From positions 1 to 43,191 of the forward strand of contig JAJZIM010000021.1 in the NCBI GenBank assembly GCA_021810565.1: DNA of 43,191 nt. Reading direction: 5' to 3'. Position numbers and translations under genes: made by a program. Shown here one piece after another: positions 100 to 16,010 of this stretch. The stretch is from Bacillota bacterium (GTDB taxonomy: Bacteria; Bacillota; Sulfobacillia; JAJZIM01). Numbering within the stretch: position 1 is the stretch's first letter; each line of letters starts with the position of its first letter. The notes under the pieces are model-generated. The model did no database searches, was not told the origin of the DNA, and saw nothing but the letters and a program-made list of their open reading frames with translations.

Positions 100-680
100 G
101 GGCAACCTCCTTTGCAAATCGGTTTCCCTCCCTCCGAGATTTTGCACTGTTACTTCGGAAGGTGAGGGTAGGAAACCTTCGATCTGACGATTGCCCAGCA
201 TCGCTTCTTGGTTATTTCTTGCCAATTACCATTTCCCAAAGCTGGTTGCAAAGATGGCCGGTTTGCTCCGGAATCTCCAGGTGGCGATGAGCACCGCCGG
301 GAAGCGGGCAACGATGCCCCAAAGCGTCCCGGGGCGGAATTGCCGGGCGACTGCAGCGGGTTGGCGGCTTTCGGGCGTAGGGGAAGGACCAGCTGACCGG
401 AACGGGAGGATCAGGCTGAGGTATGCCGCGGAGTGGCTGGCGGCAGGTGCGAAAGCCGGGCGTGGTTCGGAGCAGTCCGGGCAGGCGGTAAGGTATCAGC
501 GAAGGGTCTGAAGACGATGGAGCACTGGGCCGCCGCAGCCAATGCTGCCGATGTTACCGGACTACGGCAGGGAGGCGCTGGCGCCAATGGCGGGCATTGG
601 CCGGTCAGAGGAAAAGCGATAAGGATGTCGAAGTAAGAAAGAACTTGTCTCTTGGATTACACGGCAATAGACGGAAAACG
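100..680. other. Intergenic stretch between the transposase and the BREX operon
   Basis: No convincing gene is seen here; the short open frames have no recognisable motifs and lack good ribosome binding sites. An imperfect inverted repeat lies just upstream of the transposase: GGTTTCC at 121-127 is matched by GGAAACC at 171-177, with further partial pairing inside. TTGCAAA occurs at about 112 and again near 246. These could be transposase binding sites at the end of the IS21-like element, but the terminus itself cannot be located by eye. The promoter of the BREX operon should lie in the right half; no strong sigma-A box pair stands out. Confidence 0.4.
121..177. repeat. Imperfect inverted repeat upstream of the IS21-type transposase
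   Basis: GGTTTCCCTCCCTC at 121-134 is partly the reverse complement of GAGGGTAGGAAACC at 164-177: seven outer bases pair perfectly, then two mismatches, then five more pairs. IS21-family elements carry repeated transposase binding sites near their ends, so this may belong to the element. It could equally be an operator or chance. Confidence 0.3.
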
Positions 681-737
681 ATGGAGGCAAAATATGCCAA
701 CGCACCCTGGGATGAGCGGCTCCTCTCTCGGGACGAA

Positions 738-1499
738 ATGAAGTTGAAAAAGGACTATTCGTCTGGCGCCATTCGGGCGGGAGCTTTACTTCCAGAAAGC
801 AGGCAATTCTTGGGTGGTTCCGAGGCAAGTTTTTCATTGGGGCGCAGATCGGCAAAGTGGACGGCATCTCTGCAGCGGATCCTGAGGAGCCGTTTCGATC
901 TGGAGCCAGGTGCGCTGCGGTCCTTGCAGCAGTTGACGGCAAGCAATCTGGACGCTTTGGTTATGCGCAAGATCATCTATTATCATGCCGCCAGAGCGGA
1001 TAAGCTGCTGTATGATTTCATTACTGACGTTGTTTATAACGCGTACTTTTTCGGGAGGCGCGAGATAAACGTGGAAATGGCATCGCAGTTTGTAGATGGC
1101 GTACAGGTGGCAGGTGCAAGTGCCGATCATTGGTCGAGCAAGGTGCGGGCTCGGGTTGCTCGGGGTTTGTTATCAGTAGGACGGGATTTCGGCGTACTTG
1201 AAGGTAAGGCACATAAATACATCGCTTCGCCGTATATGCCCTTTGAGGCCTTTGTGTATGTGGCTTTCTACTTGAAGCACCACGTACGCTCAGCAAAACG
1301 TCTGATGGAGCACAGAGACTGGCGGCTCTTTTTAATTGGCGAACAGCAACTTCACGAACTGTTTATCCAAGGGCATCAGGCTGGGTTCTGGCATTATGCT
1401 GCGGCCGGATCATTGGTGCGGCTGGACTGGCGCCTGAAGACTTGGGAGGAGATGGCTCATGGCGTCCTTGCAGGAACGCATGGCTTTGTTGGAGCGTGA
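738..1499 (+). CDS. brxA: BREX system protein BrxA (DUF1819)
   Basis: First gene of the BREX operon, 253 residues from the ATG at 738. BrxA is a small DNA-binding helical protein of type 1 BREX, required in some systems for full phage resistance. Near the N-terminus it carries YSSGAIRAGALLPESR, the usual opening of the DUF1819 family, followed by a helical body. In-frame starts also exist at 681 (ATG) and 597 (ATG). None has an ideal ribosome binding site; 738 was chosen because the family consensus begins there. The 3' end overlaps brxB by 41 bp. Base composition is much less GC-rich than in brxC (27 of 60 bases are G or C at 1021-1080, against 52 of 60 at 4381-4440), which suggests a different recent history for this end of the operon. 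Confidence 0.85.
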   Translation: MKLKKDYSSGAIRAGALLPESRQFLGGSEASFSLGRRSAKWTASLQRILRSRFDLEPGALRSLQQLTASNLDALVMRKIIYYHAARADKLLYDFITDVVYNAYFFGRREINVEMASQFVDGVQVAGASADHWSSKVRARVARGLLSVGRDFGVLEGKAHKYIASPYMPFEAFVYVAFYLKHHVRSAKRLMEHRDWRLFLIGEQQLHELFIQGHQAGFWHYAAAGSLVRLDWRLKTWEEMAHGVLAGTHGFVGA

Positions 1500-2031
1500 T
1501 TTGGCCGACCCGAAAAAGCGCCTTAGCGACCAAATGATGGTGCCGATGGCGGTGTTTCTCTATGAGCCTCGAGACGAGTATGTCTTACGTCGAGAAAAAG
1601 AACTCCTGGCGATACGTCTGCGCAATAGCGGAAAACACATAGTAGAGGTGGATTTATGTGAATTGTTATGGTCAATGATTACCGAGGTGTTTCCCAAAGA
1701 GGAGTTTTTCCAAGCCGAGCGGAGCCAGGGCCTGCAGCCGGTGCTGGAGACCATAATCAACATCTTGGGGGGCACGGGGGAGCGGCCATCCCTGGAAGAG
1801 CGGATAGCCCAACTGGTGGGTGAGCTGCCGGCAGATTCGGGGGTGGTCTTGCTTTGGCGGCTGGGGGCCCTCTACCCGGTGTACAACGCCTCACACCTGC
1901 TGGCGCGGCTCCAGGGAAAGGTGAAGCTGCCCGTGGTCCTCTTTTATCCGGGCACCCAGGAGGATCGTACTACCCTGCGCTTCATGGGCAAGTGGGCACC
2001 TGGCGGAAGCTACCGTGAGCGGATCTACTGA
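1459..2031 (+). CDS. brxB: BREX system protein BrxB (DUF1788)
   Basis: 190 residues, about the usual length of BrxB. The family is a conserved BREX core component of uncertain biochemical role, thought to act with the other Brx proteins in the defence complex. Recognisable family features are the opening segment RLSDQMMVPMAVFLY, the central helix VLETIINIL, and the closing RTTLRFMGKW...YRERIY, which ends at the natural C-terminus. It overlaps brxA by 41 bp and is followed after 21 bp by brxC, so translation is probably coupled. The first half is AT-richer than the genes that follow; composition shifts to the operon's normal high GC around 1780. Confidence 0.88.
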   Translation: MASLQERMALLERDLADPKKRLSDQMMVPMAVFLYEPRDEYVLRREKELLAIRLRNSGKHIVEVDLCELLWSMITEVFPKEEFFQAERSQGLQPVLETIINILGGTGERPSLEERIAQLVGELPADSGVVLLWRLGALYPVYNASHLLARLQGKVKLPVVLFYPGTQEDRTTLRFMGKWAPGGSYRERIY

Positions 2032-2052
2032 CGCATCCGGGGAGGTGGTCGG

Positions 2053-5000
2053 GTGGCAGACCTGCAGATCAAGGAGCTTTTTCTACGACCGATTGACCGG
2101 CCCATCGAGGAAGTCACCAAGGTTGACCAGAACCAGGAAGACATCGTGCGGGGAGAGCTGGCGGAGTACGTGGTCACCGACAGCCTACGCAAGCATTACC
2201 GGACGGTGCTGGAGAGCTACCGCTCGGCGGCGGACAACCCCACGGAGCGGGTGGGTGTGTGGGTGTCCGGCTTCTTCGGGTCCGGGAAGTCCAGCTTCGC
2301 TAAAATCCTGGGCTACGTGTTGGAACCGCGCATGGTGGTTGGGGAATCAGCTGCCGAATTGTTCGCAGATCGGGCTGAGGATGATGCCGTCCGGGCCCTT
2401 TTGAGCATAATCGTCCAGCGGATGCCCGGCTTCTCCGTGATCCTGGACTTGTCCACCGACCGGGACATCCGCAGCAACGCCGAAGGCGTGGCCCAGGTGA
2501 TGTATCGCGCCCTCCTGCGCGCCTTGGGTTATGCCCGCGACTTGGATCTGGCCCATTTGGAGATGGATCTCGAGGACATTGGGAAGTTCGATGAATTCCG
2601 GCAGCGCTACGCCGCCGCTTTCGGGACTTCCTGGGAGCAGGACCGCGACCTGGTGATCCGCGCCTTCCCCCGGGCCAGCCAGGTGATGCACCAGATGGAG
2701 CCGGAGACCTATCGTGACGACAACGCCTGGCTTCAAACCAGGAAGCCGGTACCTGTCACCATCAACGACTTTGCCGACCGGGTGCTGCCCCTCGTCCGCC
2801 GGAGGCGCGGGGACTGCTTCGTGGTCTTCGTGGTGGACGAGGTCGGGCAGTACGTGTCCTCCTCCACGGACCGGATGCTGGAACTGCAAGGAATGGCCGA
2901 GGCCCTGGGCCGGGCCGGGCGGGGTCGCCTGTGGTTGGTGGTGACCTCCCAGAAGAAGCTGGATGAAGTGGTGGATGATTTGACGGGCCGCCAGGTGGAG
3001 CTGGCCCGCCTGATCGACCGCTTTCAAATCCGGGTGGATCTGTTGCCGTCCGACATCTCCGAGGTGGCCGCGAAGCGCGTGTTGGCCAAGAGGGCGGCAG
3101 GGGAGCAGTTGCTGAAGGAGCTGTACGACCGGCATCGCGGCACCCTGGAGACGCACACCAAGCTCCAGGGCGGCGTCCGCCGACCGGCACCGTTGGACCG
3201 GGACTCCTTCATCCGGCTCTATCCCTTCCTGCCCTACCAGATCGACCTGATCATCGACGCCGTCTCGGGGCTGCGCAGCCGCAGCGCGAGTCGTTTCACC
3301 GGTGGCAGCAACCGCACGGTGATCAAGCTGGCCCAGCAGATGGTGATCCACCCCGCCGTGAACCTGGGGGTACGGCCGATAGGCCATCTGGTCACCCTGG
3401 ACATGGTCTACGATCTGAACCGGGCGGATATCCCCCAGGAGCGGGCGTTGGACGTGGCGGCGGTGGAGAAGAACTTCGGGGAGGACTCCCTGGAGGCACG
3501 GATAGCCAAAGTGCTTTGCCTTTTGGAGCCGGTGAGCTGGATGCGTCGCAGCAAGGAGAACGTGGCAGCCGTGCTCTACCCAGCATTGGGGAGCGCCCCG
3601 CTGATCCTCGAGGTGGAGCGGTCGCTGGAGAGGCTGCGCGAAGCTCGCTTCGTGCGGGAGGCGGAGGACGGCTGGAAGCTGCAGACCGAGCTGGAGAAGG
3701 GTTGGGATCAGGAACGCCGGGATATCTCTCCCCGGCCCCGCGATCTGGAGGAGTTGCGGGACAAGGCCTTGGAGCAGATCCTGGGGGAACTGCCGGGTTG
3801 GCGGTGGGACAGCTATCCGGGAGGAGAGTTTCGGGCCGAGGTCCGGTTGGGGGAGAAACGCCTGGGTCGGGAGGGCGACCTTTTGCTCCACCTCACCTTG
3901 GTGGAGGACGAGCGCCTGGGGGACGAGGAGGCCAAGCTCCGGCGGCGCAGCCGGGAGGAACCGCAGGCGGCATTTTGGCTGGCGCCGGAGCCGGAGCAGG
4001 CTACTTCTCTGTGCCGTGAGGTGTTCCGTTCCGCCCGGATGGTGGAGATGCACGAGCGCGGGCATCAGGCGGGAGCGGAGAGCCTGCTGGTCCGTGAGGA
4101 GGGGCGGCGGCGGGAGCAACGGGAGCGGCAATTGCGGACGGAGTTGACCACGGCGCTGCTGCAGCGCGGACGGGTGCTGTTTCAAGGGCGTCAGGTGGAG
4201 CTGCGGGGCAAAGAGCCTGGGGAAGCGGTGCGCGGCCTCCTGGAACAGGCGGTGCCCCAGATATTCGACCGTTTTCCCCAGGGGGCGGCGGAGGTGGGCC
4301 CTAAGGAGGCGGTCAAGCTCCTGGAGTCCCACAACCTGCAGGGGTTGCCGGCGGCACTGACCGAGGAGGGCCTGAAGCTGGTGGCCACGCAGGAGGGGCG
4401 CCGGGCGGTGGACCCGGAGGCCCCGGCGGCCCGGGCGGTGCGCGATGTCGTGGAGCGCTTGCACGGGACGGGAGCGGCGGCGGAGGGCCACAAGCTGGTG
4501 GCCTACTTCCAGAGGGCGCCTTACCGTTGGCACCCCGACGTGGTCTTGGTGGTGACGGCGGCCCTGTTCCGGGCGCGTCATGTGGAACTTTTGTGGCAGG
4601 GGAAGCGTTTCCGGGATCCGGCTGAGGCCAGGGAAGTGTTCCAAGGACAGCGCAACTTTCGTCAGGCGGTGTTCACCCTCCGGGAGAGCCTGGGCATCGA
4701 GCACCGACGCAGAGCGGCCCGCTTCTACCAAGAGCTGACCGGCAAGGAGATCAGCTTGGAGGAGGTGCCCCTGGCCACGCAACTGCGGCGCTGGCTCGGG
4801 GAACAACGCCAGCGGTTGGCTCCCCTGGCGGCGGCGGCCCGGGTGGAGGGACTGCCGGGCAGCGAGCAACTGGGGGAGTTGGAGCAGGTTATCGAGGGGC
4901 TCCTGTCCGGCGGGGACGAGGACCTGGTGCAAAGCATTGCCGACCAGGGGGAGGAGCTTACGGCCCGGCTGCGCCGCCTGCCGGCGGTGGAGGTGGCGCT

Positions 5001-5616
5001 GCAGCCGGCAAACCAAGCGTTAGTCCGGCGCTGCCGTAGGCTGTTGGAGGTGTGGCCAGAGTATCTGCGCCAGGCCGGGGAGGCGGCGCAGGCTGTCGAG
5101 AGTGGGCGCCTGGTCCAGGAGATCTTGGCCGGGGAGAGCCTCTTCGAGCGATTGGCGGACCTGACTACCGCAGAGCGGGCAGCGTCCAAGGCCTACGCCG
5201 ATTTCTACGCCACAAGGCATGCCGCACGGGAGAAAGCCTTCGCCGGGTTGGTGCAGGAGCTGGCGAACCTGCCCGGTTGGACCGAACTGCCGGCCCCAGC
5301 CCGGGAGCAGCTGACCGATCCCCTGCGGCGGCGCTCCTGTGCCGCCCAGGAGATGGACGGCACTTGCTGCAAAGCCTGCCGGGCGTCCCTGGCTCAGATG
5401 GAATCCGATCTTGCCGCTGCCCCTTACCTGGGGGAGAAAGCCAAAGAGGGCCTGCTGCAACTTTTGCGCCCGGCCCAAACGGTGGAGCGTTTGCAGGCTG
5501 CCCGCTATTTCGGAAGTTCCGTAGAGACTCCGGAGGAGCTGGAGGCGGGTATTCAGGGCCTGCGGGAAGACTGCGAGAAGCTTCTGGCCCAGGGGGCGCG
5601 GGTGATCATCCAATGA
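2053..5616 (+). CDS. brxC: BREX system P-loop ATPase BrxC
   Basis: 1187 residues, the usual size for BrxC. It starts with GTG at 2053, preceded by GGGGAGGTGG. BrxC is the large ATPase of BREX, needed for both methylation and restriction phenotypes. The Walker A loop GFFGSGKSS lies at about residues 73-81, and a Walker B-like segment VVFVVDEVGQYV at about 256-267. The C-terminal half is rich in charged helices, and near residue 1095 there is a cysteine cluster (C...CCxxC) that could bind a metal. The stop codon overlaps the pglX start (ATGA, 5613-5616). Opposite-strand open frames in this gene are products of its extreme GC content. Confidence 0.95.
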   Translation: MADLQIKELFLRPIDRPIEEVTKVDQNQEDIVRGELAEYVVTDSLRKHYRTVLESYRSAADNPTERVGVWVSGFFGSGKSSFAKILGYVLEPRMVVGESAAELFADRAEDDAVRALLSIIVQRMPGFSVILDLSTDRDIRSNAEGVAQVMYRALLRALGYARDLDLAHLEMDLEDIGKFDEFRQRYAAAFGTSWEQDRDLVIRAFPRASQVMHQMEPETYRDDNAWLQTRKPVPVTINDFADRVLPLVRRRRGDCFVVFVVDEVGQYVSSSTDRMLELQGMAEALGRAGRGRLWLVVTSQKKLDEVVDDLTGRQVELARLIDRFQIRVDLLPSDISEVAAKRVLAKRAAGEQLLKELYDRHRGTLETHTKLQGGVRRPAPLDRDSFIRLYPFLPYQIDLIIDAVSGLRSRSASRFTGGSNRTVIKLAQQMVIHPAVNLGVRPIGHLVTLDMVYDLNRADIPQERALDVAAVEKNFGEDSLEARIAKVLCLLEPVSWMRRSKENVAAVLYPALGSAPLILEVERSLERLREARFVREAEDGWKLQTELEKGWDQERRDISPRPRDLEELRDKALEQILGELPGWRWDSYPGGEFRAEVRLGEKRLGREGDLLLHLTLVEDERLGDEEAKLRRRSREEPQAAFWLAPEPEQATSLCREVFRSARMVEMHERGHQAGAESLLVREEGRRREQRERQLRTELTTALLQRGRVLFQGRQVELRGKEPGEAVRGLLEQAVPQIFDRFPQGAAEVGPKEAVKLLESHNLQGLPAALTEEGLKLVATQEGRRAVDPEAPAARAVRDVVERLHGTGAAAEGHKLVAYFQRAPYRWHPDVVLVVTAALFRARHVELLWQGKRFRDPAEAREVFQGQRNFRQAVFTLRESLGIEHRRRAARFYQELTGKEISLEEVPLATQLRRWLGEQRQRLAPLAAAARVEGLPGSEQLGELEQVIEGLLSGGDEDLVQSIADQGEELTARLRRLPAVEVALQPANQALVRRCRRLLEVWPEYLRQAGEAAQAVESGRLVQEILAGESLFERLADLTTAERAASKAYADFYATRHAAREKAFAGLVQELANLPGWTELPAPAREQLTDPLRRRSCAAQEMDGTCCKACRASLAQMESDLAAAPYLGEKAKEGLLQLLRPAQTVERLQAARYFGSSVETPEELEAGIQGLREDCEKLLAQGARVIIQ

Positions 5617-7367
5617 GCGCCGGTCTGGGCCAGGGCGAGCGGGACGAGTTGCGCGCCGCGGTGCTGGCGTTGCGGAACGTGTTGGAGCGGGACGTCGCTC
5701 AGCGCCTGGAGGGGGACTTCGGCCTCCACCTGGACGGCAAGCGGGAGCCTGCGGCGCAGCTGGCCGCCGATCCACAGATTCAGAAAATCCGTCACGAATT
5801 GGACAAGCTCTTGGAGCATGAGGAGGCCAAGGGGCTTAAGCCCGCCGTGGCCGTGGAGCGCTACCGCCGAGAGACGGCCTACACCTGGCTCAACCGGCTG
5901 GTGGCCCTGCGGCTGCTGGAGGAGCGCGGGGAGGTGCCCGAGAGCGTCCGTGCCGGGGATGCCTCGCGCGGCTTTCGCGACTTTCGCCAGCTACATCCGG
6001 ATGAGTGCCGGGACCGCTCCGACGGTGGCTACGCCCACTACCTGCTGGGGCGCATGGCGGAGCAGCGGGACAAGCTCCCCGACCTGTTCGACCCAGCGGA
6101 TCCGGCCGGCTTGGTCGAGCCCAGCCCGGCGGCGATGAGAAGGGCCGTCGCCATCCTGAACGACGGCAAGCTGGCGGGCATCTGGCGCCACGCGGAGACC
6201 CTGGGCTGGACCTACCAGTACTTCAACGCCCAGGAGAAGGACCAGGTGCGCGAGGCCGGCAAGCCGACCAGCTCCGAGGATCTGACGGTGATCAACCAAT
6301 TCTACACCCCGGACTACGTGGTGCGCTTCCTGGTGGACAACACCCTGGGCCGGCTGTGGCGGCAGATGCATCCGGAATCCGGCATCGCGCAACGCTGTTC
6401 CCTGCTCTTGCCGGATAGAGACGGCGGGTCCCGGTCGGCGAAGGACCCGCGTCAGCTCAGGGTCATCGATCCGGCGGCGGGCAGCGGCCACTTTCTCCTC
6501 TACGCTTTCGACGTATTCGCCGCCATCTACGAGGAGGCGGGCTTCCCGCGGGACGAGATCCCGGGGCTTATCTTAGGGGGCAACTTGTTCGGAGTGGATA
6601 TCGATCCGCGGGCGGTGCAGCTCGCGGGGGTGGCCCTGCATCTGAAGGCCGCCGCCTATCACCCGGGCGCGCCGTTCCCTCCGGCGCAGATCGTCTGGGC
6701 CGAGGCGGCCCCCCGGGAACCGCAGCTTCTAGGCGAGGTGCGCGCCGAACTGGGAAGCGAAGAGCGGCGGCGCGTGTTCGACCAGATGTGGCGCTGGCTG
6801 TCCCAGGCCGATGAGTTGGGTTCCCTCCTGCGGCCGGCGAAGCTTCTGGGGGCCGCCGTGGACCACGGGCGCCGGAGCGCGGCGGATGCCCAGGGACGCT
6901 TCGATTTCCATGAGGACTTGGCCCGCCAGGCGGAGGCCGGCATCCGGCGGGGGCTGGAGCGGATGGCCGAGGGCACCGACGGCATGGCCCGCCGGCGCTT
7001 CGCGGCCGAGGGGGAGGAGGACCTGCGGCTCTTGCGGCTATTGTCCCAGGACTACGACGTGGTGCTGATGAACCCGCCCTACGGCGAGGCCACGCCGGTG
7101 GGCCGGGAGCACCTGCGGGAGCACTTCTCCAGGTCGCGCCACGACATCTATGCCGCCTTCGTGGAGCGGGGCCTGGACTTCCTGCGCCCTGGCGGCTATC
7201 TGGGGGCCATCACGCCCCGCAACGGCTTCTTCCTGGGCAGCTTCGAGGACTGGCGGGAGATGATCCTGGAGCGGGCGCAGGTGATCAGCGTGGCGGACCT
7301 GGGCTTCGGGGTGCTGGACGGCGCCACGGTGGAGACGGCGGCCTACGTACTGGAGGTGCGTAAATGA
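5613..7367 (+). CDS. pglX: BREX adenine methyltransferase PglX, N-terminal (catalytic) half
   Basis: 584 residues from the ATG at 5613, which overlaps the brxC stop. PglX is the BREX site-specific adenine-N6 methyltransferase that marks host DNA. SAM-binding motif I (DPAAGSGHF) lies at about residue 286 and catalytic motif IV (NPPYG) at about 487, followed by the IYAAFVERGLDFLRPGGYLGAI strand-helix and GVLDGATVETAAYVLE. In canonical PglX (roughly 1,150-1,250 residues) this continues directly into the target-recognition half. Here it stops at a TGA that overlaps the start of a different gene, and the second half is encoded separately at 7999-10101. A Shine-Dalgarno sequence for the inserted gene (GGAGGTG) is built into the last codons, so this looks like a settled arrangement and not decay. 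Confidence 0.9.
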   Translation: MSAGLGQGERDELRAAVLALRNVLERDVAQRLEGDFGLHLDGKREPAAQLAADPQIQKIRHELDKLLEHEEAKGLKPAVAVERYRRETAYTWLNRLVALRLLEERGEVPESVRAGDASRGFRDFRQLHPDECRDRSDGGYAHYLLGRMAEQRDKLPDLFDPADPAGLVEPSPAAMRRAVAILNDGKLAGIWRHAETLGWTYQYFNAQEKDQVREAGKPTSSEDLTVINQFYTPDYVVRFLVDNTLGRLWRQMHPESGIAQRCSLLLPDRDGGSRSAKDPRQLRVIDPAAGSGHFLLYAFDVFAAIYEEAGFPRDEIPGLILGGNLFGVDIDPRAVQLAGVALHLKAAAYHPGAPFPPAQIVWAEAAPREPQLLGEVRAELGSEERRRVFDQMWRWLSQADELGSLLRPAKLLGAAVDHGRRSAADAQGRFDFHEDLARQAEAGIRRGLERMAEGTDGMARRRFAAEGEEDLRLLRLLSQDYDVVLMNPPYGEATPVGREHLREHFSRSRHDIYAAFVERGLDFLRPGGYLGAITPRNGFFLGSFEDWREMILERAQVISVADLGFGVLDGATVETAAYVLEVRK

Positions 7368-8002
7368 ACTACGCGGAGACGATCGCCCACTGGTACCTGC
7401 GGCTGAACGGCTTCTTTCCGTTGAGCGACTTCGTGCTGCATCGGACGGGGGAGCCGGGGAGGGAGCTGGACGAAGGAATGGCGCATTCGGCCGACTGCGA
7501 CCTCCTGGCGGTGCGCTTTCCCTACACCTACGAAGAGATCGGTGGGCAGAAGAGGGACTGGGATCCGCAGTTTGCGCAGGATTGGGGCATCGATGTGGCG
7601 ATCGAGACTTTGGGGCTGATGGTGGAGGTCAAGAGCGGGAAGAGCGTGGCGCCCGAGGATGTGCGCACGGCTTTCCAGCCCGCGCGGCTGTGCGCTGCGG
7701 TGCGGCGCCTGGGCATGGCGCCGCGGAAAAAGGCGCAGGATTTGGCCCGAGCATTGGACAGCGAGCGCGTGGTGTCTTGCAGCGAAACCGGGAGGCGGAA
7801 GATAGCCAAGCTGCTGGTGGCCAGGCAGGCGAATAGAAGCACAACCGAGGGGCCGTGGTTCTTCCTGGCCCTGGAGGATGCGGATCAGTTCATCCTCCGG
7901 CGAATGAAGAAATACCGGGAGGCCAAATCGCGCGACCGCATGTTTTTCCCTTCGGAGCTGATCCAGTACCTGGCATGGAAAGCCGGGGTGGATGTGGGAT
8001 GA
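7364..8002 (+). CDS. PD-(D/E)XK nuclease-like protein embedded between the two pglX halves
   Basis: 212 residues, starting at the ATG that overlaps the pglX-N stop (ATGA at 7364-7367) and ending at a TGA that overlaps the pglX-C start (7999-8002). The layout fits a small PD-(D/E)XK fold: an N-terminal helix with a conserved Glu (YAETIAHWYLRLNGFF, E5), a strand with acidic residues (SADCDLLAVRFP, D44 and D46), then the core EVK (GLMVEVKSGK, E88 and K90). This pattern is shared by Holliday-junction-resolvase-like and restriction-like nucleases. Similar short proteins occur alone in bacteria; I do not know the family as a BREX component. Its exact placement inside pglX suggests co-expression and perhaps a complex with PglX. 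Catalysis is inferred from the motif only. Confidence 0.7.
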   Translation: MNYAETIAHWYLRLNGFFPLSDFVLHRTGEPGRELDEGMAHSADCDLLAVRFPYTYEEIGGQKRDWDPQFAQDWGIDVAIETLGLMVEVKSGKSVAPEDVRTAFQPARLCAAVRRLGMAPRKKAQDLARALDSERVVSCSETGRRKIAKLLVARQANRSTTEGPWFFLALEDADQFILRRMKKYREAKSRDRMFFPSELIQYLAWKAGVDVG

Positions 8003-10101
8003 GGGAGGCGGTTTTTCTGCGGCTCCTGGCTGCGCGGGACAAGGAGGCGGCCCTGACCGAGGCTGTGGTGGCCTTGCGGCAGGGGGCGGGTCACCACCCG
8101 GCGGCCTACCGGATGGACCCGGAGCACTTTCGGGAAGTGCCGGGAAGTCCCTTCGCCTATTGGGTGTCGGAGCGGTTCCGCGAGGCGTTCGTGAAGCTGC
8201 CCTCCCTGGAGGGTAGCGGCCGCACGGTGAAAGTGGGTTTGCAAACCTCCGACGACTTTCGTTTCCTGCGGGCCTGGTGGGAGGTGCCGGAGGAGCGCTC
8301 GGCCCACAGCGCGGCGGAGACCAGGGAGGGGAAGCCCTGGGTGCCCTTCGCCAAGGGCGGCGACTACTCCCCATACTATGCAGACGTATATCTCCTGGTG
8401 GATTGGGGCAACGAGGGGGAGCGGATAAAGAGTTACGTTTGCTTACGTTACCCTTATCTAAAAGGTAAGTGGGAGTGGGTGGTTAAGAACTTGTCCTTCT
8501 ACTTCCGCCCCGGCCTGACCTATTCGAGGGTAACAGTGAAGGGCTTAAACGTGCGGCTCATGCCGGAAGGCTGCATTTTTGCCGACAAAGGACCGGCGCT
8601 GTTTTTCGCCGACGAGGTGGACCGCTGGTATGCCCTGGGCCTGCTGAACACTCGTTTAACCCGCGCCTTCCTTCAGGTGCTAACACCCAGCCGCAGTTGG
8701 GAAGTCGGCTATGTGCAGCGGCTTCCCTGGGCGTCTCCTCCGGCACAGCTGCGCGACGAGGTGGCCCGGCTGGCGCGCGAATGCCACGACCGCCAGCGGG
8801 AGCTGGATGGCGGCCGGGAGACCTCCCGGGAGTTCCTGCGGCCCTTCCTGGCGCGGCTGGAGTTTTGGCCGGAGCAGTTCTCCCTGGAGGGCACCTTCCG
8901 CCGCTATCTGCAGTGGCGGGAGGCCAACGAGGCTGCCCTCCTGGAGGCTTCCTGGCGCATCGAGGCGGCCGTCCTCGACCTGTACCAGGTGGATGCGGCG
9001 GACCGGGCGGCCCTGGACGCCGAGCTGGGGCCGCACCCCGGCGCCCTGGCGCAGCGGGGCCTCTCCGCCGCAGACGCTGCCGCCCTGCGCAGAGCCTACC
9101 TGAGCAGGGAGGCAGTCGAGGAGACCGGCGATGGGGAGGAAGGGGAGCGGCCGGCGCGCGGCAAAGGAAAAAAGCGGCGCTATCTGGAACTGGGAGAGCT
9201 GGCCCTGACCTTGGGCTGTGCGCCGGCCCAGGTGGCAGCTTGGCGCTTGCAGCTGGGGTTGGTACGGCCCGAGGAACTGGAGGAGCAGGCGGTGCGCCTT
9301 GCCTCTTATGCTTTGGGCGTGGCCTTCGGCCGCTTCGACCTGCGCGGGGGCGGCCTTTTGGGACCGGTGCCAGGGGACTACCCGCTGGAGGTTTCCCCCG
9401 ACGGGCTTCTGGCGGATGACCCCGGGCATCCCTGGGACTTGGGGACGCGCTTGTCTGCGGCCATGGAGGCCATCTTCGGTTCCAAAAACGCGCCGCGGGC
9501 CGAGGAGGAGCTGTGCGCCCTCCTGAAAGTCAAGCACCTTAGGGATTTCTTCCGGGACCGCTTTTTCCGGCTGCACCTCGGGGACTACAGCCGCCGGCCG
9601 CGCAAGGCGCCCATCTACTGGCAGCTGTCCTCGCCCCGGCGTGCCTACAGCATCTGGCTGTATTACCCGCGCCTGACGGGGGACACGGTCTTTCGCATCC
9701 TGCGGGACTTCGTGGAGCCCAAGCAGCATTTGGAGGAGCGGCACCTGCAAGAGTTTCAGGAGCGGCGCCGGGCGGCGGAGGAGGGTTCTCCCCGCGAGGC
9801 CAAGGCCTTGATGCAACGGGAGGTGGAGGCGGAGCACCTGCTGGAGGAGCTTGCGAGCCTGCGGCGGGGACTCGAGGAGGTGGCCGCCCTGCACTTGTCG
9901 CCGGATCCCGATGACGGGGTCGTCCTGAACGCGGCGGCTTTTCATGGTCTGCTAGCCTGGCCGGAGGCGGACAAAAAGTGGGGTGAGATCAGCGCCGGAA
10001 ATTATCCTTGGGCCGCGGTGACAGCCCAGGTGCTGCAGGCAGCGGAGCAGCGGGATCCCCAGTTGGCGTCGAAACTGCGGCAAGCCCTGGAGAAGAGGTG
10101 A
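7999..10101 (+). CDS. pglX: BREX methyltransferase PglX, C-terminal (specificity) half
   Basis: 700 residues. The start ATG overlaps the nuclease stop and has GGGGTGG about 7 bases upstream. The protein opens with FLRLLAARDKEAALTEAV and continues with PGSPFAYWVSERFREAF and VKVGLQTSDDFRFLRAWWEV, the segments that in intact PglX follow directly after the catalytic domain. Next come the target-recognition region (LTYSRVTVKGLNVRLMPEGC, ALGLLNTRLTRAF) and the helical C-terminus. It has no SAM-binding motif and should depend on the N-terminal half for activity. The two halves add up to 1284 residues, close to a full PglX. A lysine/arginine-rich linker (GKGKKRR) lies near residue 392. The stop is 4 bases before pglZ. 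Confidence 0.88.
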   Translation: MREAVFLRLLAARDKEAALTEAVVALRQGAGHHPAAYRMDPEHFREVPGSPFAYWVSERFREAFVKLPSLEGSGRTVKVGLQTSDDFRFLRAWWEVPEERSAHSAAETREGKPWVPFAKGGDYSPYYADVYLLVDWGNEGERIKSYVCLRYPYLKGKWEWVVKNLSFYFRPGLTYSRVTVKGLNVRLMPEGCIFADKGPALFFADEVDRWYALGLLNTRLTRAFLQVLTPSRSWEVGYVQRLPWASPPAQLRDEVARLARECHDRQRELDGGRETSREFLRPFLARLEFWPEQFSLEGTFRRYLQWREANEAALLEASWRIEAAVLDLYQVDAADRAALDAELGPHPGALAQRGLSAADAAALRRAYLSREAVEETGDGEEGERPARGKGKKRRYLELGELALTLGCAPAQVAAWRLQLGLVRPEELEEQAVRLASYALGVAFGRFDLRGGGLLGPVPGDYPLEVSPDGLLADDPGHPWDLGTRLSAAMEAIFGSKNAPRAEEELCALLKVKHLRDFFRDRFFRLHLGDYSRRPRKAPIYWQLSSPRRAYSIWLYYPRLTGDTVFRILRDFVEPKQHLEERHLQEFQERRRAAEEGSPREAKALMQREVEAEHLLEELASLRRGLEEVAALHLSPDPDDGVVLNAAAFHGLLAWPEADKKWGEISAGNYPWAAVTAQVLQAAEQRDPQLASKLRQALEKR

Positions 10102-10105
10102 GGTC

Positions 10106-12544
10106 ATGGGGGCGGTGAGCGACGAACTGTGCAGGCGGGTGCGGGAGAAGCTTCGCTCCCGCGGCCTGGTGGTCTGGTACGATCCGGGCGGACTGGGCCA
10201 GCCGGTGGCGGAGCAGTTGGCATCGGAAGGGGAGCAGGTCTTGCAGGACACCGGCAGCATCTACGAATTGCTGTACGCCGCCGAGAAATACCTTAGGACT
10301 CCCGATCCTCCCCGCCTTTTGTGCTACGTCCCCCGGACCTTGACGCCGGAGCAAAACCCCCTTTATCCCTTGGAGCAGGCGGGCGCCGTTTTTGGGCTGG
10401 ATCGCGGGGAGCAGCTGGCTGCGGTGGCCGCCAAAGTTCTGGGACAGGGGCCTGACGTCTGGGAGGGCATGTCCCTGGCGGAGCTGGACCGGGCGGCGGA
10501 CCGGCGCGGGACGGACGACCTGATCCGGATGAAGCTGGGCACCGACGATCCGGCGCAGATCGCCTGGAAGGTCATCCTGGAGACCCAGGAGACCACTGGC
10601 GAGCTGCGGAAACTGCGGGAGGAGTTCCTGCGAGAACGGCTGGCGATGGCGGACGGGGCAGGAGCCTTCTCGCAGCGGCTGAAAGAATGCATTCTACTGG
10701 GTGAACTGGCGGCGGTGCAGCCGGAGTTGGCCCTGCCCGGGTTCACTCCGACGGCGACGGCGGCCGGCGTGTGCCGCGGGGTGGCTGAACGCTGGCGTGA
10801 CTCGGACAGCAAGAGCGCGGCCTATGTGGAAACGGCCCGGTCGCTGGAGCGAAAACTGCGCTTGGCCGAGTTGGCCCGGCAGGGGCCCGTCGGGGTGGCC
10901 CAGACCTTCCCCTGCAACGAATGGCGCCGCCTTGCGGAGGCGACCCGGCTGGCCGAAACGCAGAAGCTGGAGGAGGCAGCTCGGCTGTGTGAGGAGGGGG
11001 TGAAAAGCTTCTGGTCCCGCCGGGACGAGGATATCCGGCGGGCCTGGCAGGGATGCCACGCCGCGGTGCGCCTGTTGGCCGAAGTCGGGCGGGTGCGGGC
11101 GGAGCTTGCTGACGCAGGGGGGGCTTCGCCAGCCGAGCTGGTGCAGCGCTACACCCGGCCGGAGGGCGGCTGGCACGTGCTGGACCGGGTGGCCCGGCGG
11201 CTGCCCGCAGACCAGACGGACCGGGCGGTGCGCAACCTGCTGCGGGTGGCGCACAAGGGCTATGACGACTGTTGCGCCGAGATGGCGGAGCATCTGGCAG
11301 ATGCCGTGGAGCGGGAGGGGTTGGATTTCCCGGGCCTGGCGCACCAGCGCGAGTTCTGGCGGGAGCAAGTGCAGCCGCTGCTCTCGAAAGGGAGAACGGC
11401 GATTTTTTGGTTGGATGCCTTGCGCTACGAGATGGCGGTGGAGTTGGAAGCGATGTTGGAGGGAACAGCGCATATAGACCTGACTTTTGCCGTGGCCACC
11501 TTGCCGGCGGTGACGCGGGTGGGGATGGCTGCCCTGCTGCCGGGGGCCGAGAACGGCTTGTCCCTGGTGGACGCGGCTGGGACGCTGCGGGTGCAGGTGG
11601 GGGATAAGGAGCTTGCCGATAGTGCGGCTAGGGACCGCTACCTGGCTGAGCGGCTGGGCCGGCCGCCGCTGATCCTCTCCCTGGACGAGGCCGTGAACTT
11701 GGATCCGGAGGTACTGGAGCACCGCCTGGCTGGGGAAAGCCTGGTATTTCTGCGTTCCCCGGAGATAGACCGGGCGGGGGAAAACGACTCCGCCTACCAG
11801 GGGCGTCGGACCATGAGCCTGCTCCTGGACGATCTGCGGCAGGCGGTAGGACGGCTGGCGGCGGCCGGGGTGGAGCACTTTCTTCTGGCGGTGGACCACG
11901 GCTTCTTGCTTCATGAGCCGATAGCGCTGGAGCGCTTCGTCTCTTCGCCTGGGGGACACCCTTTGGAGGAGCATCGGCGGGTGTGGATCGGCAAAGGGGG
12001 GAGGGCCGATCCGGCCTACCTTCGCTTCCGAGCCGATGAATTAGAGCTGGGCGGGGACCTGGAGTTCGCCTTCCCCAGAGGGCTGAATGTGTTTCGGGTG
12101 CGCGGCGGCTCCAAGACCTATTTCCACGGTGGCCTGTCCCTGCAGGAACTGGTGGTGCCGGTATTGCGGCTGCGTTTGGCGGCGGGCTTGGGTGATGCCG
12201 GGCAGGAGGAGGTGGAGGTGCGTTTGGAGAAGGGGAAGATCACCAACCGACTATTCAGCGTGTTCTTGACCTGGTCCAGGAAGGATTTCCTGACCCCGTC
12301 AGTGCGCCTGCGCTGCAGAGTCGTGGCGGGGGAGCGCGTCATCGGGAGCCTCGTAGGGGGCGATGCCGGCTTTCATGCGGACAGTGGCGAGTTGGAACTG
12401 AAGGGGACGGACAAGGTGCGCGCCTTCATCCAATTGGACGAAGAGGCGCCGCCCCAAGGGGAATTGCGGGTGGAAGTGCTGGACGCGGCCACGGGGGCGG
12501 TGTTGTGCCGCTCGCCGCAGGTGCCGTATCTGCTGACGTTTTGA
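10106..12544 (+). CDS. pglZ: BREX-1 alkaline-phosphatase-superfamily protein PglZ
   Basis: 812 residues. PglZ is the hallmark BREX protein; its core is an alkaline-phosphatase-like fold thought to act as a metal-dependent nuclease or phosphodiesterase and needed for defence. The N-terminal region has LVVWYDPGG at about residues 21-29. The PglZ domain begins near residue 433 with FWLDALRYEMA, whose Asp is a presumed metal ligand, continues through ATLPAVTRVGMAALLPG, and carries a second ligand pair in AVDHGFLLHE near 594. It starts 4 bases after pglX-C with GAGGTC upstream, and brxL follows after 29 bp. Length and domain order agree with the type 1 (PglZA) family. Confidence 0.95.
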   Translation: MGAVSDELCRRVREKLRSRGLVVWYDPGGLGQPVAEQLASEGEQVLQDTGSIYELLYAAEKYLRTPDPPRLLCYVPRTLTPEQNPLYPLEQAGAVFGLDRGEQLAAVAAKVLGQGPDVWEGMSLAELDRAADRRGTDDLIRMKLGTDDPAQIAWKVILETQETTGELRKLREEFLRERLAMADGAGAFSQRLKECILLGELAAVQPELALPGFTPTATAAGVCRGVAERWRDSDSKSAAYVETARSLERKLRLAELARQGPVGVAQTFPCNEWRRLAEATRLAETQKLEEAARLCEEGVKSFWSRRDEDIRRAWQGCHAAVRLLAEVGRVRAELADAGGASPAELVQRYTRPEGGWHVLDRVARRLPADQTDRAVRNLLRVAHKGYDDCCAEMAEHLADAVEREGLDFPGLAHQREFWREQVQPLLSKGRTAIFWLDALRYEMAVELEAMLEGTAHIDLTFAVATLPAVTRVGMAALLPGAENGLSLVDAAGTLRVQVGDKELADSAARDRYLAERLGRPPLILSLDEAVNLDPEVLEHRLAGESLVFLRSPEIDRAGENDSAYQGRRTMSLLLDDLRQAVGRLAAAGVEHFLLAVDHGFLLHEPIALERFVSSPGGHPLEEHRRVWIGKGGRADPAYLRFRADELELGGDLEFAFPRGLNVFRVRGGSKTYFHGGLSLQELVVPVLRLRLAAGLGDAGQEEVEVRLEKGKITNRLFSVFLTWSRKDFLTPSVRLRCRVVAGERVIGSLVGGDAGFHADSGELELKGTDKVRAFIQLDEEAPPQGELRVEVLDAATGAVLCRSPQVPYLLTF

Positions 12545-12573
12545 TCCTGCCGAGCGAGGAGGTGACGACGACG

Positions 12574-14616
12574 ATGCCCGGTCAGCAAGGGTTGGACGAG
12601 AAGTCTAATGGGGTGTTTGCCGGCAAGGTGGTCCGCAAGGATCTGGTCCGCAAGGTGAAGGTGGGGGCCAACGTCCCGGTCTACGTGCTGGAGTACCTGT
12701 TGGGCAAGTATTGCGCCACCGATGATGCTGCGGCGGTGGAGGCCGGGCTGCGCACGGTGAACCGGACTTTGGCCGACAACTTCGTGCGTTCCGACGAAGG
12801 AGTGCGCGCCCAGTCCCGGGTGCGGGAGGAGGGCAGCCACAGCTTCATCGACAAGGTGAAGGTGCGGCTTTTGGTGAGCGAGGACAGGTACTGGGCGGAG
12901 CTCGTCAACTTCGGTTATCGCTACGTGCACATCCCCGAAGAGTATGTGCGCCGCTACGATCGGTTGCTGGCCGGTGGCATCTGGGCCAGGGTGGACCTGG
13001 AATACCGCCCTGAGGAGTCCGTGGGGGGCAAGATCCAGCCTTTTTTCATTACCCAGCTGCAGCCGATCCAGTTGGCCGCCTTCGACCTTGACGATTTCAT
13101 GCGGGGCAGGGGGGAGTTCAGCACCGAGGAGTGGCTGGACTTGTTGGTGCGCAGCGTGGGCCTGGAGCCGGCTCTGCTCACCCGGCGCCAGAAGCTCTTG
13201 GTGCTGGCGCGGCTTATCCCCATGGTGGAGCACAACTTCAACCTCATCGAGCTGGGACCGCGCGGCACGGGCAAGTCGTTCGTATACCGCGAGGTTTCCC
13301 CTTACTCTATCCTGGTATCCGGCGGCAAGACCACCACGGCCAACCTGTTCTACAACATGGCCACCGGCAAGATGGGATTGGTGGGGCTTTGGGACGTGGT
13401 GGCTTTCGACGAGGTGGCGGGCATACGGTTCGAGGACCGCACGGCGGTGCAGATCCTGAAGGACTTCATGGAGGCCGGTTCCTTCAGCCGGGGCAAGGAG
13501 GAACTGGTGGCCGACGCGTCGCTCAGCTTTCTCGGCAACATCAACACTCCGGTGGAGGTGCTGGTGCGAAGTGCGCACCTGTTTCAGCCGTTGCCGTCGG
13601 ATATGGGGAGCGACATGGCTTTTCTGGACCGCCTGCATTTCTATCTGCCGGGCTGGGAACTGCCCAAGCTGTCAACCGAGCTATTCACCAACGGCTACGG
13701 CTTTGTTTCCGACTACCTGGCGGAGGCTTTGCGGGCACTGCGCAAGCAAAATTTCACGGAACTGATAGACCACTACTTCTCCCTGGGGCGAAGCCTCAAC
13801 GCGCGGGATGTCAAGGCGGTGCGCAAAACGGTTTCGGGCTACATCAAGCTCATGCATCCGGACGGGGTGTTGTTTACCCCGGAGGAGTTGGCGGAGTACT
13901 TGGAACTGGCCCTGGAGGGGCGACGTCGGGTCAAGGAGCAGCTCAAGAAGCTGGGAGCTTTCGAGTATTACCAAACCAGCTTTTCTTACTTGGATGCCCA
14001 TACCCGGGAGGAACGCTTCGTAGGCGTGCCGGAGGAGGGCGGAAATAATCTGATCTCACCGGATCCGCTGCCACCGGGTTCAGCTTACGCCCTGGTGCTG
14101 CGGGAGGGGGACAAGCTGTCCATATCGCGCATCGAGGTTGGCAAGATGCCGGGCACCGGGAAGTTGCGGATCAGCGGTGGCCTAGGCCGCTCTATGCGGG
14201 AGTCCATCCAGACGGCCTTTGATTTCCTGAAGTCCCACCGGCGGGAGATGGCCTTGGGCGAAGACATGGACAGCTATGACTTCCATGCTCAGGTGGTCGA
14301 CCTCATGAGCGCCAAAGAGGGAAGCATGGGCGGGGTGGCTTTCTTCTTGGCGCTGTACTCGCTCATGCGGGGGACTCCCATTCAAGCGGGGATGCTCGCG
14401 TTGGGGGAGATGACCGTGCAGGGGCGCATTCTTCCGGTGAAGTCCTTGACCGAAGCGCTGCAGCTGGCCATGGACAATGGGGCGAGAAAGGTACTGATCC
14501 CGCTGGAAAACAAGCGGCAATTCCTGGAGGTGCCCGGGGAGATCGTGGAGAAGGTAGATCCGGTCTTCTATTCCGATCCGCTGACCGCGGCTCTCAAGAG
14601 TGTGGATGTCAGATAG
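12574..14616 (+). CDS. brxL: BREX Lon-like AAA+ protein BrxL
   Basis: 680 residues from the ATG at 12574, chosen because GAGGAGGTGA lies 8 bases upstream; an in-frame start at 12505 would overlap pglZ and lacks such a site. BrxL is the last gene of type 1 BREX, an AAA+ ring-forming DNA-binding protein with a Lon-protease-like C-terminal domain. Walker A is LGPRGTGKS near residue 230 and Walker B VVAFDEVAG near 275. The Lon-like domain covers roughly residues 490-680. In an ungapped comparison with bacterial Lon, KEGSMGG puts Met where Lon has its catalytic Ser, and LPVKSLTEAL puts Thr where Lon has the catalytic Lys, so proteolysis looks unlikely. Confidence 0.94.
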   Translation: MPGQQGLDEKSNGVFAGKVVRKDLVRKVKVGANVPVYVLEYLLGKYCATDDAAAVEAGLRTVNRTLADNFVRSDEGVRAQSRVREEGSHSFIDKVKVRLLVSEDRYWAELVNFGYRYVHIPEEYVRRYDRLLAGGIWARVDLEYRPEESVGGKIQPFFITQLQPIQLAAFDLDDFMRGRGEFSTEEWLDLLVRSVGLEPALLTRRQKLLVLARLIPMVEHNFNLIELGPRGTGKSFVYREVSPYSILVSGGKTTTANLFYNMATGKMGLVGLWDVVAFDEVAGIRFEDRTAVQILKDFMEAGSFSRGKEELVADASLSFLGNINTPVEVLVRSAHLFQPLPSDMGSDMAFLDRLHFYLPGWELPKLSTELFTNGYGFVSDYLAEALRALRKQNFTELIDHYFSLGRSLNARDVKAVRKTVSGYIKLMHPDGVLFTPEELAEYLELALEGRRRVKEQLKKLGAFEYYQTSFSYLDAHTREERFVGVPEEGGNNLISPDPLPPGSAYALVLREGDKLSISRIEVGKMPGTGKLRISGGLGRSMRESIQTAFDFLKSHRREMALGEDMDSYDFHAQVVDLMSAKEGSMGGVAFFLALYSLMRGTPIQAGMLALGEMTVQGRILPVKSLTEALQLAMDNGARKVLIPLENKRQFLEVPGEIVEKVDPVFYSDPLTAALKSVDVR

Positions 14617-14640
14617 GGCGAAACGGCGGAAGAAAAGGCA

Positions 14641-15054
14641 TTAAATCTCACCGGGCGTCTGGGATATCACAGTTAGGTTTGGGATATCTCGAAAATCGCG
14701 GTTGTTATGCGTTATGAGCGGTATTCTATAAAGCAAGGCCGTAGCGGCAATCCAGGCGTCATTGGCCTTTATGTCATGACCGGATTGCCTGCATTGGCAT
14801 GACACCTGGGCCCATAATTTACACAGCTCTTTGTTGAATGGGATTATCAGGTAGTTGCGCAGAGCATCTTCCATGGCGGCGATTCGGGAAGGGCCCCATT
14901 TGCGAAGGAACATCCATCGGTATAATTCAGCAACCGTGACGAATGAGATTGCAGGAAGCCGACCGACTATGTGCGCCGCATAGTAGGTGGCTCTACTGTC
15001 TTTCTTCAGGAGAAAAGAGCATACGTCTGTGTCGAGCAAGACGAAGTCCTTCAA
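14641..15054 (-). CDS. PIN-domain toxin (VapC-like ribonuclease)
   Basis: 137 residues, converging on brxL with a 24-bp gap. It has the PIN order of acidic residues: LLDTDVCSFLL near the N-terminus (D8, D10), VTVAELYRW in the first third (Glu), DIKANDAWIAATAL in the last third (Asp pair), and THNNRDF near the end. PIN toxins are Mg-dependent RNases that cut tRNA, rRNA or mRNA when free of their antitoxin. The ATG overlaps the stop of the upstream 319-residue gene (ATGA), so the two are co-translated; that gene is the likely antitoxin. The gene is noticeably AT-richer than its neighbours, as is common for mobile toxin-antitoxin modules. Confidence 0.85.
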   Translation of the reverse strand: MKDFVLLDTDVCSFLLKKDSRATYYAAHIVGRLPAISFVTVAELYRWMFLRKWGPSRIAAMEDALRNYLIIPFNKELCKLWAQVSCQCRQSGHDIKANDAWIAATALLYRIPLITHNNRDFRDIPNLTVISQTPGEI

Positions 15055-16010
15055 CCGTTTGTGCTCCTATCCCTATCCCGCCAAGCGCGTATGGCTACCA
15101 AGAATTCGTCGAGTGATTCTTCCTGCGGCCAGGCGCCGGCCAACTGGCCGATGCCCTTGGGCACCTCGACCTCCTGCTCGGATGCCAAGGCGTCCAGGCT
15201 CAGCGGCTGCCAGAAATCGTAACCTTCCCCGGGCTCCGCAACATGTTCCGGATCCAGCACCTCCAGACCGGAGATGGTCAGGTGCGTCAGCTCGCCGGTC
15301 ATCGGATCGACGTCCGCCGAACCCCAGGCCCGTACCCAATGGCCCAGGGTCGCGAGAACCGCTTGGCGGTGAGCCTCATCGAAGCTGCACGGCAAGGGCT
15401 TGCCGGCGGGGGGGTGGATGCGGCAGCGGTACGCACCCTCCCGCAGGTCGGCCATGAGCAGGCGCCCCTCCACGGTATCCAGGTTGACGGCGCGGGGACG
15501 CGCCAGCTCGAGGAGCCGTTGGTGAGCCTGGGGATCATAGGTGGCACCGGAGTGTGCGCGCCGGGTGACCAAGTCGAGATCGATCCGCTCGACCCCGCGC
15601 CCAAAGAGAGCGCCTATGTCGCGCCAGCGCGCCAGGACGCCGGCATCGTAACCCCGAGGCATCTCCCGTAGCCCCGAGGTTACAGAGGACAAGCCTGCCA
15701 CGAGTTGCTCCAGGGCCGCCTCGCCGGGGTCCAACTCCTGGACCAGGAACTGGTCGCGAGGCAGGACCAGCTCCAGCGACACGCTGCCCCGATGCATGCC
15801 GCGAAGCGCCAGAGAGCAAAGCCGGCGGACCTTTTTGGGCAAAGGGCCTGGGTGCCGTCCTTCTCCCTGGATCAGGCCCGACCCTATCCGGTCCAAGGCT
15901 CCCTGCAGGTGGTGGGACAGATGCGCGAGGTCTTCCAGCAGGATCTCCCCGCGGTCCACGGCGGGGCCTTCCAGGTGAACGGTCAACCGGGGCGTGATCG
16001 TGTCGGCCAT
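15051..16010 (-). CDS. Putative large antitoxin for the adjacent PIN toxin (uncharacterised family)
   Basis: 319 residues, ATG at 16010-16008, ending in a 4-bp overlap with the PIN toxin gene. The N-terminal part (LTVHLEGPAVDRGEILLEDL, then a helix HLSHHLQGALDRIG) has no fold I recognise. A beta-rich middle follows. The last 30 residues (WPQEESLDEFLVAIRAW, then RDRDR) look like the toxin-wrapping tail of VapB-type antitoxins (acidic, Leu/Phe, Trp-Arg pattern). The gene order and this tail point to an antitoxin, but at more than 300 residues it is far longer than usual VapB proteins (60-100). The large N-terminal portion may add a sensing or regulatory role. Confidence 0.55.
   Translation of the reverse strand: MADTITPRLTVHLEGPAVDRGEILLEDLAHLSHHLQGALDRIGSGLIQGEGRHPGPLPKKVRRLCSLALRGMHRGSVSLELVLPRDQFLVQELDPGEAALEQLVAGLSSVTSGLREMPRGYDAGVLARWRDIGALFGRGVERIDLDLVTRRAHSGATYDPQAHQRLLELARPRAVNLDTVEGRLLMADLREGAYRCRIHPPAGKPLPCSFDEAHRQAVLATLGHWVRAWGSADVDPMTGELTHLTISGLEVLDPEHVAEPGEGYDFWQPLSLDALASEQEVEVPKGIGQLAGAWPQEESLDEFLVAIRAWRDRDRSTNG

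Follow-up and report, generated by a model that had tools for sequence, protein, structure and literature searches.

The first 14.6 kb of a 43,191-nucleotide stretch of DNA from a Bacillota bacterium (contig JAJZIM010000021.1 of assembly GCA_021810565.1; the whole stretch is referred to below as the window) carry a type 1 bacteriophage exclusion (BREX) operon in which the methyltransferase gene, pglX, occurs as two genes with a small nuclease-like gene, here named NUC, between them. A hallmark of type 1 BREX is N6-adenine methylation of a non-palindromic 6-bp motif on a single strand. An earlier note on this DNA had reported a pglX split in two with a gene between the halves. This observation was confirmed, and the coordinates, lengths and motifs given for the three genes are right. 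Our preferred interpretation, which we regard as probable, though with considerable reserve, is that the operon encodes a two-chain PglX and that a portable auxiliary nuclease of the PD-(D/E)XK type has settled in the stop-start junction between the two genes. Most likely, NUC is an add-on weapon and not a newly acquired part of the enzyme. This interpretation draws on the gene layout, the recurrence of the split without an insert, the predicted fold and active-site conservation of NUC, and the occurrence of NUC both in and outside BREX operons.

The upstream gene, pglX-N (positions 5613–7367; all features of the operon are on the forward strand), encodes 584 residues comprising an N-terminal domain and the N6-adenine methyltransferase domain, whose motifs I (DPAAGSGHF) and IV (NPPYG) are intact. 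The downstream gene, pglX-C (7999–10101), encodes 700 residues that, by alignment with PglX, contain the target recognition domain, spacer helices and the C-terminal region. In place of one polypeptide of ~1200 residues, the two products jointly span the PglX profile: the NCBIfam model BREX_1_MTaseX gives 379 bits with pglX-N (profile positions 4–610) and 317 bits with pglX-C. Relative to solved PglX/BrxX structures, pglX-N aligns up to residue ~610 and pglX-C from residue ~648 (PglX 648–1213). By these alignments, the products are consecutive parts of one PglX protein, and the window pglX is a PglX-derived two-chain variant and no separate family.

NUC (7364–8002) encodes 212 residues. It overlaps pglX-N at 7364–7367 and pglX-C at 7999–8002, in both cases by an ATGA stop-start, as had been described. 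These overlaps are not special to the two junctions, however, since brxC and pglX-N also overlap by ATGA; overlap is a habit of this operon and is not unique to NUC. Shine-Dalgarno sequences had been claimed at both junctions; that before NUC is good (GGAGGTG), but that before pglX-C is weak (GGTGGATGTGGG). The two halves are in different frames and enclose a whole gene, which no single frameshift or sequencing error would produce; frameshift and assembly error were rejected as causes of the split.

The cut falls in a variable loop that immediately precedes the jaw hinge of PglX. In E. coli BrxX, the jaws are joined via hinge loops (residues 638–675; PMC11842806), and in Salmonella PglX the hinge comprises residues 654–659 (PMC11341690). 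A fused relative reads ...VETAAYVVAKGSASDAPAVFLRLLKEKDK... across this loop, and the window reads ...VETAAYVLEVRK (stop) / MREAVFLRLLAARDK..., with pglX-N ending in ...VLEVRK (stop) and pglX-C starting with MREAVFLRLLA. A genome of the same class (G054) has an identical split point with an ATGA overlap and no insert (pglX-N ends in ...VETAAYCLEVVE before its stop codon, and pglX-C starts with MSEILFLRLLQ). Its junction is the empty-site equivalent of that in the window. In two genomes from other lineages of the phylum (G320 and G433), PglX is split at nearly the same point, also without a nuclease; the corresponding loci (L069 and L070) have overlapping PglX halves with no insert and belong to a second, distant BREX lineage.

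In the 398 genomes surveyed for the phylum, PglX is otherwise mostly a fused protein (open reading frames mostly of ~1137–1423 aa), and in the same-class relatives G016, G477, G045 and G532 it runs uninterrupted across the split loop. In a PglX tree, the window, G054 and a further Bacillota genome described below (G035) lie outside the fused clade (support 100/98), with G320 and G433 as the outgroup. Two-chain forms must already have been met by annotation pipelines, since PADLOC contains half-length PglX profiles (593–682 aa), each of which matches one half; our literature searches found no description of a split PglX. Insertion of NUC was rejected as a necessary cause of the split because splits without an insert exist (G054, G320 and G433). 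Judged from these genomes, the split appears to be older or commoner than the nuclease. The view of nuclease and split as one unit, taken in the earlier note, was not supported in that form: the split occurs without the nuclease in these three genomes, and the nuclease occurs without the split in an acidobacterial locus (L129, below). As a contrast case, pglX of G074 (L071, 2543–10790) is decayed into three pieces, interrupted by a Mrr-type-endonuclease-like gene (4704–5969) and a transposase-like gene (7330–8328), among others. A badly fragmented pglX relative from the same clade, apparently a pseudogene, is found in G478 (L100).

Neither Pfam nor NCBIfam recognized NUC, PADLOC gave no convincing match, and the first pattern scans with its single sequence gave no matches. 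Members of the PD-(D/E)XK superfamily share an alpha-beta-beta-beta-alpha-beta core fold and are characterized by DNA cleavage that depends on metal ions. The AlphaFold2 model of NUC, computed with 61 homologues (pLDDT 90, pTM 0.87), shows this core, with a helix at 3–14 and strands at 18–25, 43–51 and 82–90, followed by helices and a strand at 145–153. The top match in VIA-align was AF1548 (1y88; Z 9.7, 115 residues, 2.6 Å), and the next rows were mostly PD-(D/E)XK nucleases at Z ~5–7.4. The PD-(D/E)XK matches included EndoMS/NucS, BspD6I, Can2, Card1, XisH, MspJI, HamA, McrC, VRR-NUC, Hjc and Cap4. Each single match was middling, and Foldseek found nothing significant in PDB or BFVD. Because the VIA-align matches agree on one superfamily and the acidic and lysine active-site residues are conserved among 62 homologues (E5 in 60/60, D44 in 59/62, D46 in 62/62, E88 in 59/62 and K90 in 62/62), the predicted membership of NUC in the PD-(D/E)XK superfamily is, in our judgment, secure. 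Both the motif set read earlier from the 212-residue protein and its nuclease-like character are borne out by the conservation and the modeled fold.

A similar layout is present in a second lineage. In G035 (L105), a metagenome-assembled genome (MAG) of the same class and another family, the order is pglX-N, a gene for 288 aa, NUC and pglX-C, the last two with a stop-start overlap. The 288-aa gene (L004, 10945–11811 on the reverse strand, corresponding to L105, 8814–9680) starts at the pglX-N stop, and ~320 bp separate it from NUC; neither Pfam nor PADLOC matches it, and it does not resemble the 281-aa HEPN gene of L129. The order that the earlier note proposed to look for is found in G035, with an extra gene before NUC; more generally, split and nuclease occur apart. 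The second lineage also supports the arrangement as a variant and not decay in one genome. An assembly or sequencing artifact is extremely unlikely: the source assembly is fragmented (115 contigs), but the genes are intact and lie in three different frames, a similar layout recurs independently in G035, and G054 has the empty junction.

The remaining case inside a BREX operon, L129, comes from a Pyrinomonadaceae MAG (Acidobacteriota). Here pglX is fused (1400 aa), NUC follows it by 55 bp, GmrSD-HNH and pglZ come next, and a HEPN gene precedes pglX. This core operon carries three extra putative nucleases (HEPN, NUC and GmrSD_N-HNH; 4889–5734 and 10608–11918). Among 247 Acidobacteriota genomes there were two NUC matches and, with one match looked at, no NUC-BREX case besides L129. 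In looser association with BREX, a distant NUC relative lies directly after brxL in L154, and the match in L175 lies ~2 kb beyond brxL on the opposite strand. A scan of 84,980 species yielded 80 NUC loci. With the window excluded, NUC is inside a BREX operon in 2 of 81 loci versus ~0.016 expected, a rough figure that assumes 10% of genomes with BREX, 7 gaps and 3500 genes; by this rough estimate, its presence there is beyond chance.

Between the window and G035, identity is 46% for NUC, 45.5% for pglX (48% for pglX-N and 44% for pglX-C) and 43% for brxC, as expected for joint descent. Between the window and L129, NUC is closer (50%) than pglX (40%), brxC (34%) or pglZ (30%), which suggests that NUC moved separately. 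In the NUC tree, G035 groups with Dictyobacter and L129 with free-standing genes of the Moorella type. The approximately unbiased test did not reject a pairing of the window with G035 (p = 0.17) and was borderline for all three BREX NUCs together (p = 0.065). A single shared origin of all BREX NUCs is disfavored by the tree and borderline in this test; the simplest reading is one recruitment in the line of the window and G035 and another in L129. NUC was rejected as a BREX-specific invention since most of its homologues occur without BREX. A viral origin was likewise set aside: we found two distant relatives on viral contigs and none in annotated phages.

These comparisons also bear on the idea that NUC is a mobile orphan gene that entered the junction and is merely tolerated there, or marks the decay of pglX. 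Members of the NUC family turn up in diverse phyla and contexts, some of them as broken copies, and decayed pglX loci do exist (G478 and G074). However, both halves in the window are intact with their motifs, the active site of NUC is kept, the overlaps are exact, and the 46% identity to the similar arrangement in G035 corresponds to a long time for unselected DNA. Passive insertion is improbable in our judgment. As a separate observation, one genus (g177; L030, L033, L034, L035 and L037) has many NUC copies, partly broken, which suggests rapid turnover of the family.

Outside BREX, NUC occurs in varied settings. Sixteen of the 398 genomes of its own phylum have a NUC match, nearly all without BREX and often in polysaccharide or flagellar neighborhoods. 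Elsewhere, NUC lies in defense contexts with genes of DISARM (defense island system associated with restriction-modification) and CBASS (cyclic oligonucleotide-based antiphage signaling system), Avs4, Mokosh and Zorya. In the first of these, L103, its neighbors are DrmMI and a CBASS cyclase; this Geobacteraceae island (3247–15173) comprises a DpdE/DrmD-type helicase, DrmMI, NUC (21 bp after DrmMI), the cyclase and E1-E2 genes. Other neighbors are Avs4 (L107), MkoC (L122 and L130), ZorD (L140) and a Mrr-type endonuclease (L110). A possible fusion was noted in Phenylobacterium (L158, 9176–10663), where a NUC-family domain stands behind an unrelated N-terminal part in a 495-aa frame.

The location of NUC beside methyltransferases raises the possibility of a three-chain modification-plus-cleavage enzyme, in which NUC would dock on the reassembled PglX and cut at or near unmethylated BREX sites, as a split counterpart of MmeI. 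In MmeI, a type IIL enzyme, nuclease, methyltransferase and target recognition reside in a single chain, and the cut falls a fixed distance away from sites that lack methylation. In the window, G035, L129 and L103, NUC has an MmeI/PglX-type methyltransferase as its immediate neighbor, and NUC and pglX-C overlap by stop-start in both split cases. On the other hand, most NUC relatives have no adjacent methyltransferase, G035 has the extra gene and ~320 bp between pglX-N and NUC, and the BREX NUCs are not demonstrably one lineage. At the sequence level, NUC gave no match to the nuclease domain of MmeI. We regard such an enzyme as rather unlikely. Equally doubtful is a broader proposal, in which the NUC family would supply MmeI/PglX-type methyltransferases with a pluggable cutter that joins the two chains as a three-subunit modification-plus-cleavage enzyme in split-PglX BREX and also serves DISARM-type DrmMI and perhaps other defense systems.

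If, as we prefer, NUC is an auxiliary nuclease in the operon of a two-chain PglX, the methyltransferase chain and the specificity chain would come together as a functional enzyme. The position of the cut, in a variable loop ahead of the flexible jaw hinge, leads us to infer that they reconstitute an active PglX. A short piece on the C-chain would complete the methyltransferase jaw and is a plausible reassembly interface. NUC would be co-translated, in step with the PglX chains, and would be no obligate part of the methyltransferase. We further infer that it cleaves DNA and has a role in defense, acting during infection as an auxiliary effector that would degrade DNA in addition to PglZ. PglZ itself is a metal-dependent endonuclease with a part in defense (PMC12205998), so the earlier statement that BREX cleavage had yet to be demonstrated is outdated. 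A catalogue that spans thousands of taxa lists nucleases embedded in BREX operons (Rakesh and Krishnan, 2026; PMC12839542), and among such auxiliary effectors PD-(D/E)XK proteins are the commonest.

Several results weigh against this interpretation. Most NUC homologues are outside BREX, part of them in sugar-biosynthesis or other non-defense settings, so that NUC might have no BREX role. Defense genes made up ~16/79 of the genes adjacent to NUC and ~9/73 of those further out (Fisher p = 0.14), and random positions, used as a control, likewise gave clusters of CRISPR, methyltransferase and helicase hits. The excess of defense genes next to NUC is suggestive; in view of the p value and the hits in this control, a general enrichment of NUC in defense islands was not established. 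The C-terminal domain of Salmonella PglX could not be expressed alone (PMC11341690), so the C-chain may need its partner.

A role as guard or toxin was also considered, in which PglX or the BREX complex would restrain NUC until phage proteins such as Ocr interfere with PglX and set NUC free. Its position inside the pglX cistron ties NUC dosage to PglX, and suicidal back-up effectors have been proposed for BREX loci in the above catalogue (PMC12839542). Free-standing homologues without BREX genes, however, would need another antitoxin or be non-toxic, and we consider this role very improbable.

The operon (597–14616) has all six core genes in canonical order, brxA-brxB-brxC-pglX-pglZ-brxL. These include brxA (597–1499, start codon uncertain; Pfam BrxA, 7.5e-15), brxB (1459–2031; Pfam BrxB, 1.7e-16; PADLOC BrxB, 1.2e-32) and the ATPase gene brxC/pglY (2053–5616; NCBIfam BREX_BrxC, 760 bits, cutoff 400). 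Downstream of pglX-C are pglZ (10106–12544; Pfam PglZ, 4.9e-12; PADLOC PglZ, 4.1e-97) and the Lon-like brxL (about 12574–14616; TIGR02653, 972 bits, cutoff 628). Just beyond brxL and convergent with it is a gene for a PIN-domain (VapC-like) protein (14641–15054, reverse strand). Further into the flank, a 1185-aa protein with RNase_H_2 and AAA_11/AAA_12 helicase domains (19737–23294, reverse strand) may be another DNA-handling or defense gene.

According to our literature searches, three features are new: PglX recurs as two chains, a nuclease gene occupies the junction in two lineages, and BREX operons of two phyla contain a PD-(D/E)XK family that lacks a profile model. Nucleases within BREX loci (PMC12839542) and the nuclease activity of PglZ (PMC12205998) were already known. 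The earlier remark that no described BREX type has this layout agrees with these searches; embedded auxiliary PD-(D/E)XK nucleases, on the other hand, are described in the catalogue. The natural two-chain PglX marks a dividing point between the methyltransferase jaw and the recognition jaw, and could be useful for studying the coupling of recognition, methylation and restriction in BREX and for specificity swapping. The analysis also points out a previously undescribed, widely spread PD-(D/E)XK family, found in BREX operons from two phyla and next to several further defense genes. Should NUC act together with PglX, catalytic mutants in one small operon could be used to test how BREX stops phage DNA.

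Among known systems, NUC resembles the small stand-alone PD-(D/E)XK proteins AF1548 (1y88), EndoMS/NucS and XisH in predicted fold and active-site layout, but shares no sequence family with them. Like MmeI and other type IIL enzymes, the window combines a nuclease, a gamma-class N6 methyltransferase and a target recognition domain, although on three separate chains and not as a single-chain fusion. As in HsdM/HsdS of type I restriction-modification, methyltransferase and specificity are on two chains; here, however, the chains derive from a PglX-type single protein, and there is no HsdR motor. The auxiliary nucleases of BREX loci (PMC12839542) are matched by a PD-(D/E)XK protein encoded within the core operon, but NUC differs from those described in the main text in being inside pglX, at the boundary between methyltransferase and specificity; the word 'split' is absent from that main text, its supplementary list aside. 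With type 1 BREX itself, the window shares the six core genes in canonical order, and its PglX halves fit type 1 PglX best among typed NCBIfam models; it differs in having pglX as two genes that flank a nuclease gene.

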